Source of the DNA: Tubulanus polymorphus
Lineage: Eukaryota; Nemertea; Palaeonemertea; Tubulaniformes; Tubulanidae
Assembly (NCBI RefSeq): GCF_964204645.1
Contig: NC_134035.1
Coordinates: 12,195,951 to 12,259,950 of the forward strand
DNA length: 64,000 nt
Direction: 5' to 3'
In this document: positions 11,501-17,500 of the stretch, in pieces
Layout: every line of letters begins with the position of its first letter
Numbering within the stretch: position 1 is the stretch's first letter
Program-made: the position numbers and the translations under genes
Notes under the pieces: model-generated
Seen by the model: only the letters and a program-made list of their open reading frames with translations
Databases searched by the model: none
What the model was told of the DNA's origin: nothing

Positions 11501-14500
11501 TTGATAGGTATCCGGTTACTGGTGACATTTGAAAGGCTGGGATTCCACTGCGTAAACTATATTTTGAGAGGCTAGGCTTCCCTTGTCTAAACTATGATTT
11601 GAGGGGCAGTCTTTGCTGTGTCTAAACTATACTTTTACAGGCTGGGTTTCCACTGTCTAAACTATAGATAACGCAAGGACTGCTCTCTATCGACACATCC
11701 GAACCTGAGTCAACCGTCTAAACTGTAGATAAACTCAAGGCCCAGTCGCACAGTTTTGGCAAATTGGTCTTCAATGTTAAGAGTGGTCTTCTTAAGTTAA
11801 TAGATTAGTTATAGAACTAAGTTGATCTTTGATTGTTCCTGAAATTGAGCTATGACCAATGCAACTGACCCCTGTTATCAGGATTTAACTCACCTTGCAT
11901 TTTACGTCGATGAAATCGTGGTGAGCCGAGAAAGTTGTTTTTAATCGTATTGAGTCTAGTTTTCCACGGTGTCGTTTGTATACTCGGTGATCCAGGGGGC
12001 GTCTGTGCAGCGTTTTCATTGTGTGCCGATCGAGAAGGCAGTTTTGGACTGTTGAGCGGAGATGGCGAGGGGCTACCCATGGAAGATGTTAAACTGTTCT
12101 TTCGTCTACAAGAGAAAGTGCTGAACAATGAGTCTTCATAAAAGATTACATAATTCATCATCTAACCATCCTCCCTCAAACCTGATGGCAGGATGATGAC
12201 ATTGAGAAGAACCCCCTAGCAGACACATCCACCCTCGACAGGGATTCCAACCATAAGTCATCCAGAGGCTACCCTACGAAACCCTGCCTGATCAGCTTAG
12301 ACAACTTTTGCTGCACCGATCAGATTGCCTGTTTTATAATCACCCAAGTAAGTTCATGCGTAGCTAGCTATAAATAAAAATATCCAGCAATAATATAACT
12401 GGATTTTTGATTGGCTGATCAACAGATATCAACTGAGCTGCTTATCAGACAGGGTGCGTGCCATGGAAGAGTCTCATGATACCATCAGGTTTGAATCATA
12501 GCTAAGAAAGGATGTAATCTACAATACACTGAATTATATGAAGGTATAGATTGAATGAGAAGTGAAAGATTTTTCAGTTTAGATTCAAATTCTATTATTT
12601 CTAGTGAAAATTGAAAGCCATTTCACAGCCAGTTAATCGAGATTTTCATGAAATATGGAAGTTTTTCTATGAAATGGCCCGCAGATCTATACGAAAACTA
12701 ATATTTAGAATACACTTCCAATTGATAGGAAAGTCATTTAAAATGCCCTGGACCCGGTTCCACGGTTCTGTTAACTTTGGCTTACGACTTAAACATATGC
12801 ATTGAAAATTATTGGAGTCAACCAAGTGAAACTAGGTCCGGTTCTTACGTCTAAAAAAGAAAGTGTTTGGATTAAATGAATACGTGCATAAGGTTGATTA
12901 TGGCGAGAAGTTTTTCATGCAAGAATCCAGTTCCGTAGTAGCATACGCTAGATTTGATCCTTGTGCGATAAAAACATGAACTGATTTCAAGAGTCAAATC
13001 AAACTCGTAATTGTCACTGTTTGAGTTAGAATACTCGAGTTAACTGAGAATTGTGGAACTGGACACAGGTTTATATGAAATCTAAAAGCAGACATCTCAT
13101 CGTAAGAAGATGTTTTAAAGCAAGTGGCCTAAAATAATAGCGCGTTCGATTATCTTCCGCGAGTAAGTCTGAATATAGCAGGGCGAGTTCAATTTATCCA
13201 TCACGTGATAGTTTAGGCTACCCCGGGGAAGTTTAAAGTAACCTGCTCCGGGAGTCGCTCACTTTAAACTTCCCCGGTGAAGCCCTACCACGCGATGGAT
13301 GAATCGAACGCGTCCAGGGTGATCCCTGGGTATACCCTGACTTACTCGCAGAAGACAATCGAACTCGCTATTAGTTACATGCAATTTAACGACACATGTA
13401 CGACAGTAATAAGTAACTGATGTAAAATTTTAGAATAGAACTATCGACATTGAACTGTAGTAGACTAGAGCCATTCATGAATATATCGACAACTTTTATG
13501 TCCGGTGAGAAGAGTTCCACGAGAGAAAAGTCTGACGTCGGAAAAAAAATGTTTCTATTTTTTTAGAATTTCGCGATGAAAGTGACGATGATAAAGAAAG
13601 AGCGAGGAGGAAAGCGTTTTTTTTTAGATACAACATTGACGATAAGTCTTACACTAGTCGTTGAACGGCTAACGCCCTGCGTGAAACTAACGGTGATCCC
13701 TCACTAATGTTACCCAATGACAGGCGTCTAATAAACAAACAAATACGTTAATAATGATTATGTACAGGGATGAAAAATAACGCAATACAAACAACACGAC
13801 AACTGAACACAATAAACCGGCGATCACGCGGAGACGATTTCGGCCGGAATTAAACCAGCCCAGACCGGAGTCGAATTTCGCCCATGCCTAGATTAGAGAG
13901 GGCGTTCACTTTCACATTACAACATGCTATCAAAATGATGCTGCGGCAAGTGAGGTGATCTAGTTTTAAGCCCAACAAAACTGATGTTTTGCCGAAACAG
14001 AAAACACGTTTTTCAGAAAACGTTTTTTGCTCGTGAAAAACGTTTTTCAGTTCGGCGTTTTGTGTTTTGCCTCCCCGCACACTGCATAACAAAAACATCG
14101 CAAAAAATGTTTTTTCACAAGGAAAAAACGTTTTTTCGGTGCCGTGTGCGTTGGGCTTTCAACTTCGCAGCAGAATGACAAATGTTGGCTTTTATGCACT
14201 CGGCGCGGTGCCTGTCACAGGAAAAAACGTTTTTTCGGTGCCGTGTGCGTTGGGCTTTCAACTTCGCAGCAGAATGACAAATGTTGGCTTTTATGCACTC
14301 GGCGCGGTGCCTGTCACAGGAAAAAACGTTTTTTCGGTGCCGTGTGCGTTGGGCTTTAGCGTTCAAACAGAATAATTGACACAAGCTAGGATTAGGTCTA
14401 AGGGTCTGGTCCGCGTGTTCGTGGCAATTTGGCATTCGGAATAGTGCGACTAGCTGTTCCCGGTCTAGTCTGGCACGGGCCAAATTCAACCCCGGTTAGA

Positions 14501-17500
14501 AACGGTCGCGTGATCGCGGTTATAGTCGCGGTGTGAAGGTTCTACCATTGCCCGGTTTATAACTAGTGCGAGAGGTTACATCACGATCATCGTTTGAAAA
14601 ATAATCATAATAATACAAATTCTATCGTAACGACAAACGAAGGCGTTTCATGTGTTCGAATTGACTACAATTTCCACCGACGCGAACGCATTTAAACACC
14701 AGTGATAGACGACGTTTCACACGAGAAGTGGTTTCAAATTTGAAAACCTCGACGAAAAAAACCGTCTCGGTAAAAGCATCGAGACGCGAGACGTCCTCTT
14801 CATGGAATCAGCTTTTTTACTCGATTCGAATATCGGGTGTATTCTTTATTACACGTACTTATACTGAGAATAGCTGAAATGCCAATAATTCACAACACTA
14901 CGGACCCAGTTCCACGGCTAATATCAGCTAGATTTGCCTCTATATAGAAATAAACGAAAATGAACTGTAAACAGCTATTTATAGTCAAATTTAACACTTG
15001 CTTTGTAATTAGCTTAGAATTTAGCGCTTGTTATTTCAATAACTTATGTTGTATATAAATCTGTAGTTTTAATTATTTGATTCACTTGTATTTCACCTGA
15101 TGAGGCGGAACAATCGTGTTTATAAACTGTTTTTACTCATTAGAAAATGAGGTTTTTATTGTTATCGCTTCAGCTAGATTTTCCTCTAGATAGAAATAAA
15201 CGAAAATGAACTGTAATAAGCTATCATAGTGTTGCCTGTGATGTCATATTCTGTTTGCCAGTCAGTGCTTGTCATACGCAAAACATCTAAAGATAATCAG
15301 GGTATTTACAAACTTCGCGGGTCTGTCATATAAATCACTTATTGTGTTTGACTACTGATAGGGCGTCTTGCCACGCGATAACGGCACATGGGCTGCAAGA
15401 ACCTCTATGAAGAACCTTTCCCTATTCAAATTCACGGATCTATTGAGCATTAGTTCTCGCATTTTAGGGCATCCCCCTTTATTGGTACAGCCTTTAGGCT
15501 TGGGGATGTCCTATCAATTATGTGTGCCAGGGGATGACATGTAAACTTAACAATAAAAAAATATTGCACATTATGGGAATTATGCACAAAGGAAATTATC
15601 ATAGCTGAAAACCGCGTGGAACTGATGAACGTTGTGTCGATACTGAGAAACTTGTCCATAAAACTGATTGCAAAAATGCATCCGCGCTTGCGCTAGCTTG
15701 ATAGAAATGGTAGCAATTCATTCGTTGGTCGTTGATATGATTCTTACACTTGTTGTACAGCTAGGGCACGTCTGGAAGCGAGGGGCGATCCTTCACTGAT
15801 TGAACCCAACGACAATCGACTGTTGAGAAAATGTTGTTGTTAATAGCAGCATGAAACATACGTATCGGACAGGCTCTTTTTATTAGTAACGAATAAATAA
15901 ACATCGGCAAATTCATTGTTAACTTATAAACCAGTTACAAACTCGGGCTAGTCTTTCCTCTTCGTGAATTTTGCCTTAGCCTTACACGGTGATACAGGTA
16001 TCAATCAAAAGCATGGACCGATCCTCCGAAAAAATTCATCATTCTTTCAATATTTGTTCATCCACGCTTCGCATGCATTCAGAACTTTACGGGAGACGTA
16101 TTAAATTGAAAATGAATTACAAACGCCAGATGTAAGACATTTTATCAGCAAACTGATCGTAAGCGCTGTACATAGCAATGATGAATATCAGCAGGTGTGC
16201 AGGCTTCAGACTACAGATTGATACCTACAAAAACCTTCAGGGCAACCGAAAAATAATGAAATTACTTCTTCATTATATCTTATGTCATACGTCCAAATAT
16301 AGAAACAGCGTTAATCATCGGTTACGTTATAATTGTTAAGACGAGTTAATTAATCAACTTCCATGCTGTTCAGCATCATGGATCTTAATAAAACTCACTG
16401 ATTAGACAAAAATTCAAACAAGATGCTGAAAATATCATTGTCAGTAGGAATAAATTGATTAGTCGAATTTCAGCGAGGGTTAGAACAAGAATACAGAAAC
16501 TGCTCGTAATATGGTAGACACTGGTGACACTAGGCGGCGCTTTCATACGTATTATCAATGTAATTCAATAAGGAAATAGGTCAGCGAAGCTTTTGAGGAA
16601 CAATGAGTTTTAAACTGACGAACACAAACTTTTTAAAATGTGGCAATATTGATGAAGCTGTGTTGGTGGTGGAATACCGCAGAACAGTGGAAAGGATGGC
16701 GGGGATTGAAATCATCTTTTAACGGGGATTTAGCACATTCGCTACCGACTACGAGATATCTCATAGTTTCAGATCTGCCATCATTGCCACTATGAGATAT
16801 CTCATAGTTCCGGTTCTGCCATCATTGCAACTATGAGATATCTCATAGTTTCAGATCTGCCATCATTGCAACTATGAGATATCTCATAGTTCCAGTTCTG
16901 CCATCATTGCCAGTATGAGATATCTGGTTGGCTGGTGATGTTAACAAAATCAGCTTTATTCTCAAAGCTAATTGGTCAATTTCAAACGATTGCCGACTAT
17001 GTAATAGCTCCATAGCTAACTATGAGCATACAAATAGCGGCGACTGGTAACATGGAGGCAGCGAACGTGTTAAATAATCTTTGAAACTCGAAGAATGAAA
17101 TTTTCAGAAAGTTCGAAGGCCATGCAACTGAACGTGAACATACTGGAGTCCGGGAGAATGGATTCTTAATGAGTAATGTCTAGTGAGTCGACTGGGAGTC
17201 CTGGGAGTCCTTGATCTGAACGATGAATGATGACGAACTAGGCTAGGAACGTTAGGAACTTCCAGATTACATCCGTACTGCGATCGACCGCTCGGTAGAT
17301 TCCATAGAATTCTAAATATCAATCGTACACCATCATTTTATTAACTATACATTTCATTTCCTGGTTATTGACCGCGCCTAAAATTTTTTTTCGAAGTTTG
17401 AGACCTCAGTTAAAATGGGGTTAGTCTAAATTCTATACGGCTTGACCGAGCGACTAGCCCCAGGGCCCGGTTCCATAGTCATGACATAGACTTAAAACCT

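Follow-up and report, generated by a model that had tools for sequence, protein, structure and literature searches.

Kinases of the BRSK/SAD family take part in the formation of synapses and in the development of the nervous system; we know of no duplicated linker exon in their mammalian members BRSK1 and BRSK2 (SAD-B and SAD-A). According to PMC4686854, mouse SAD-A comprises a kinase domain, a UBA domain, an AIS and a KA1 domain, and the AIS, together with the UBA domain, autoinhibits the enzyme. Alternative splicing is described within the family: exon 15 of C. elegans sad-1, a single cassette that alters both the sequence and the length of the C-terminus, is regulated neuron by neuron (PMC6641836), and exon 19 of human BRSK2 shows a small event with tandem donors (PMC1779574). 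Tandem duplicated and mutually exclusive exons are known from human, Drosophila and C. elegans, where, according to PMC9741552 and PMC5740500, they are adjacent, phase-matched and of nearly equal length, differ by conservative substitutions and stem from old duplications; the name BRSK is absent from the main text of both papers. The BRSK/SAD gene of the nemertean Tubulanus polymorphus described here resembles sad-1 in its alternative splicing, which is putative in our case, but differs from it in that a duplicated exon, rather than a single C-terminal cassette, lies in the linker between the UBA and KA1 domains.

The window analysed is a stretch of 64,000 nucleotides, in which the pieces of this gene are collinear on the minus strand from the kinase domain to KA1, extending at least from position 38677 to position 9520 (9520..38677; the ends are putative and some exon borders approximate). 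The gene was mapped by tblastn with a BRSK2-like, mammalian-like protein, a query that leaves unmatched the two exons considered below. Its assignment to BRSK/SAD, which had been proposed in the earlier note, is borne out by further domain matches. A 50-residue kinase exon finds BRSK2 in the PDB with an E-value of 8.3e-25, the next molecule being SIK3 at 4.8e-9, so that the kinase domain is of the AMPK family and closest to BRSK. In Pfam, UBA_BRSK (PF21115) is matched at 1.2e-12 (48.3 bits, cut-off 27) and KA1_BRSK (PF21122) at 7.7e-35 (119.9 bits, cut-off 27; exon pieces joined by eye), the counterparts of two of the domains of mouse SAD-A. In the genome searched (267.8 Mb, 77 contigs), the kinase exon has one place at E<=0.001, and the BRSK/SAD gene is likely to be single copy. 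No exon of another kinase was matched at this threshold, though related kinases must exist; hence, a search of this kind picks up only close relatives in the genome. The tblastn map shows no duplicates of further exons of the gene, although diverged ones could escape its query.

The pair lies between the upstream coding exon E11 (18710..18761, minus strand), which ends in phase 2 with AG (..CCA AG) at the donor AAG/GTTTGT (the slash marks the exon border), and the Ser/Pro-rich downstream coding exon E12 (11895..12105, minus strand), where the end of copy A or B comes before the initial motif RKNS. Exon A (15748..15819, minus strand) has 72 nt and exon B (13653..13727, minus strand) 75 nt; both are bounded by AG and GTAAGA in the GT-AG manner, share the donor AGT/GTAAGA, and enter and leave in phase 2 (..GT end), exactly the coordinates and phases that the earlier note had given. 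Each encodes one version of a linker segment of about 24 residues. The introns measure 2,890 nt (E11 to A), 2,020 nt (A to B; 13728..15747, minus strand, with dispersed and tandem repeats) and 1,547 nt (B to E12). In the tblastn map the pair falls between UBA and KA1, i.e. in the kinase linker as had been claimed, and the mapped exons place it between UBA and the AIS-KA1 end. Being neighbouring, homologous, phase-matched, of 72 and 75 nt, and identical in 20 of 23 residues, exons A and B belong to the known class of tandem duplicated exons. They share with the described pairs (PMC9741552, PMC5740500, in the parts available) adjacency, phase, similar length, conservative substitutions and age, and differ from them in lying in a linker without a known fold, in lengths divisible by three, in a long repeat-bearing intron between the copies, and in an exclusivity that is putative. 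For the linker, neither a PDB match at E<=1 nor a Pfam family at E<=0.01 was found. The earlier note knew of no description of an exon duplication in BRSK/SAD, and among the titles and abstract beginnings listed from the open-licence literature none reports this pair; it may well be annotated somewhere without comment, as the search covered open-licence papers only. A splice switch of the segment from UBA to AIS-KA1 was likewise not found in the parts of the literature examined.

That the duplication is old can be read from the two copies. In the codon alignment, with the extra Leu of B dropped, 20 of 23 residues are identical and 23 of 69 nucleotides differ, which upholds the view that both exons encode a nearly identical peptide. 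The same view had put the difference at one codon plus many silent changes; the silent changes are there, but the coding difference amounts to three substitutions (S/N, A/V and Q/R, A before B), a Leu codon that only B has, and the first codon, which is split by the intron and reads AG/T (Ser) with A and AG/A (Arg) with B. By the NG86 method, 15.75 synonymous differences fall on 19.5 sites and 7.25 non-synonymous differences on 49.5 sites (Fisher p = 2.7e-7, with counts truncated to 15/3 and 7/42); the synonymous proportion exceeds saturation, and dS cannot be calculated. When the same number of bases was changed at random, at most 17 of 23 residues were kept, and none of 20000 runs reached 20. 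When one copy was simulated as evolving neutrally and the other by synonymous change only, not one of 400 runs kept 20 residues at any of the five distances used; hence, selection has held both copies, and a dead copy is very unlikely. The upstream flanks of A and B align no better than shuffled sequence (score 21.0 against a shuffle mean of 21.2), whereas across the donor both exons have the same 9 nt. Gene conversion or recent copying was rejected, given the saturated synonymous sites and the unalignable upstream introns. Judged by these patterns of divergence – saturated silent sites, upstream introns that no longer align, and the failure of all dead-copy runs – the linker exon was duplicated long ago, and selection has maintained both copies through almost all of the time since; the earlier note had likewise called the duplication old and both copies functional, and both are apparently still in use.

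The downstream flanks score 27 against a mean of 21.0, a value reached by 4 of 200 shuffles; the match joins positions that are offset by about 340 nt and lies partly in a family of short repeats (D5), and it is not taken as homology. A DNA search with 13653-15819 gave at least 47 further matches, which fall without exception in two stretches of intronic repeats and outside the exons (40 of 588 candidates scored). The peptide of B, searched against the assembly at E<=10, has two places only, at 2.0e-8 and 1.2e-5 (two candidates scored; the first pass of this search may overlook diverged copies). An ungapped BLOSUM62 scan of 12106-18709 scores the two copies at 102 and 93 and the next best position at 16, where 100 shuffles have a mean best of 18 and a highest of 32. 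A third or decayed copy was thus not found above shuffles in 12106-18709, and the genome searches, within their reach of close relatives, gave neither a third copy nor a paralogue.

The splice signals of the two exons are alike at one end and unlike at the other. Matrices were built from 11 donors and 10 acceptors of this gene, with the E2 donor left out. Both donors score 5.2, rank 23 of the 390 GTs in the region, within the 2.8 to 10.9 spanned by the known donors when each is left out in turn. For acceptors, the gene's ten known sites span 5.7 to 17.1 when left out in turn: B, at 8.5 (rank 9 of 321 AGs), falls inside this span, whereas A, at -11.3 (rank 274 of 321), lies under every one of them. 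The matrix is small, with ten sites, and the asymmetry is visible in the letters themselves, CTCAACAG for A versus TTTATTAG for B. The supposition that the copies share the type of both splice sites is therefore right for the identical donors and for the AG, but not for acceptor strength, which is far weaker in A. This asymmetry points to B as a default exon and to A as one that would need help, and it makes constitutive use of A less likely. The heptamer TATTAAC, which resembles a branch point, stands at position -26 to -20 before both exons (15839..15845 for A, 13747..13753 for B, minus strand) and is present at five places in the sense strand of the window (64 kb). A shared in-register run of this length arose in 92 of 20000 shuffles and is also present in one other, pyrimidine-rich pair among the 66 pairs of the gene's 12 acceptors. 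Over 58 nt the upstream flanks of A and B agree at 19 positions, which puts them near the median of the 66 pairs (rank 31). We suggest that TATTAAC is a putative kept branch point.

In the reading preferred here, the tandem duplication has left two functional exons that would be chosen between, as a rule one per transcript: B, whose acceptor is the better, would be the default, and A, which has a weak acceptor and the same branch-point-like heptamer and donor, would be used only when a splicing factor assists. Weak and good acceptors fit such a regulated and default pair, and equal phases with nearly equal lengths keep the frame. The neuron-by-neuron regulation of sad-1 splicing in C. elegans, though it concerns a different exon, also agrees with this reading. 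Kinase, UBA, AIS and KA1 would remain unchanged, with the linker carrying one of two versions of a Ser-rich segment. On the strength of these signals, we hold alternative, mostly one-at-a-time use, with B as default and A regulated, to be somewhat probable.

Mutually exclusive splicing, as proposed in the earlier note, may occur, but the features that would hard-wire it are absent. No U12-looking donor was found among GTAAGA and GTTTGT when compared with the U12 consensus; joint inclusion is in frame; and the A-B intron, with 2,020 nt that include dispersed and tandem repeats, against a criterion of less than 50 nt between donor and branch point, offers no tight spacing. Such an absence does not exclude exclusivity, because in PMC5740500 the exclusion of 484 of 629 clusters is left to other control, e.g. 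RNA-protein or RNA-RNA interactions. When competing intronic RNA pairing (docking/selector) was looked for in this one genome, 254 inverted pairs were found, of which the 25 listed all lie in a TA microsatellite. Nine motifs of RNA-binding proteins were counted in the three introns against mononucleotide shuffles, uncorrected, and no conclusion is based on them: the B-E12 intron has 2 copies of TGCATG (shuffle mean 0.33) and 7 of a PTB-like motif (3.1), the E11-A intron 2 of TGCATG (0.6), and the A-B intron 9 of CAC..CAC (3.8), some of them inside its repeats; the remaining counts are at or under the shuffle mean.

Since the frame stays open in all four forms (A, B, A+B and skipping) and both lengths are multiples of three, the exons could instead act as two independent cassettes, so that proteins would hold zero, one or two copies, which would adjust how long the linker is and how many Ser sites it has. 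The location of the pair, in a linker for which no known fold was found, fits this reading and counts against exclusive use: for human genes, PMC5740500 reports that the protein regions of 87% of exclusive exons lie in secondary-structure elements, that most of the remaining exclusive exons would shift the frame if joined, and that cassette exons favour disordered regions; a folded domain is the usual, but not an obligatory, location of exclusive exons. Against independent cassettes, the near-constant length and sequence of both copies suggest that the segment would be needed once in most proteins, and we regard this explanation as possible, though rather unlikely.

The two exons may also be joined constitutively or commonly, so that the linker would hold a 24-residue Ser-rich unit twice in tandem (two RLSLG..SEGSPL..RRAL units). 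Every splice combination is in frame, we found no mechanism that bars the joining of A and B, a linker without a known domain would tolerate a repeat, and constraint on both copies is equally expected. The weak acceptor of A speaks against constitutive use, and so does the ancestral state, as mammalian BRSK, which we take to have one copy of the segment homologous to A and B, suggests a single segment in the ancestral linker; common joining is, in our estimation, unlikely. That either copy is a decaying relic, or one that is not spliced, is very improbable: the acceptor of A, scored with the gene's own matrix, is the sole result that would fit a decaying A, whereas its donor, frame and branch-like heptamer are intact and no neutral-copy run at any distance retains 20 residues.

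If exons A and B are used one at a time, the choice would reach two Ser sites at the borders of the segment. In the joined sequences, the junction with E11 reads GSPSRLSLGS with A and GSPRRLSLGN with B, and the junction with E12 reads QQVRKNSL with A and RLVRKNSL with B. The intron interrupts the first codon, so that the joined reading is S-R-L-S with A but R-R-L-S with B; exon choice would thus toggle the Arg at -3 of one Ser site. At the other end, the Q/R difference and the extra Leu give L-V-R-K-N-S for B-E12 and Q-V-R-K-N-S for A-E12, which would toggle the Leu at -5 of a second site (LXRXXS). The linker Ser sites presumably correspond to S382, S393 and S412 of human BRSK2; a literature search for BRSK2 Ser382 gave no match. 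The abstract of PMC6890249 names LXRXXSXXXL as the consensus for MARKs, which belong to the AMPK family; its LXRXXS part is completed by B and not by A, and the Leu at +4 is present in neither. Exon choice may accordingly tune the phosphorylation of the linker. A further step, which from residues at two junctions we consider quite doubtful, is a phospho-site switch in the own linker of a synapse kinase: through the Ser/Arg toggle at -3 and the Gln/Leu toggle at -5, neurons would decide if the segment from UBA to AIS-KA1 can be phosphorylated by basophilic kinases or by kinases of the AMPK family, BRSK itself perhaps among them.

The animal can probably build two versions of a flexible kinase linker. 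One-at-a-time use, if true, would place an exclusive-exon pair in a region without a known fold, unlike the analysed human pairs, and the locus offers a test case of whether duplicated exons in regions that are frame-neutral and have no known fold are truly spliced exclusively. An old and maintained pair means that evolution has kept two versions of the segment between the UBA domain and the autoinhibitory AIS-KA1, and it names the residues in which they differ.

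The intron that separates exon A from exon B, the two homologous exons of the BRSK gene, contains two dispersed repeats (13964-14221 and 14988-15171), for which at least 37 and at least 10 other rows, respectively, are found assembly-wide among the matches listed, some of these rows overlapping each other. Identity among the matches listed is 85-95% for the main rows and 71-73% for weaker pieces. A 41-nt tandem repeat with a palindromic core, ACTATGAGATATCTCATAGT, lies in the intron 5' of exon A (16748-16952), and the intron 3' of E11, the coding exon upstream of exon A, carries a TA microsatellite of about 250 bp (18279-18530).

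On the minus strand are open frames at 39672-44271 with hydrophobic segments and a His-rich stretch (HGHSHGHGHS); judged by eye from a motif, they resemble an SLC30/ZnT zinc transporter. Another minus-strand open frame, of 523 residues (52416-53984), consists for most of its length of KTEVVEGNG-type repeats.

In BRSK exon E8 (GALPFDD..), the acceptor and the initial bases fall within an exact 41-bp tandem duplication (20512-20593, minus strand), which yields two identical acceptors spaced 41 nt apart; splicing at the upstream one would shift the reading frame.
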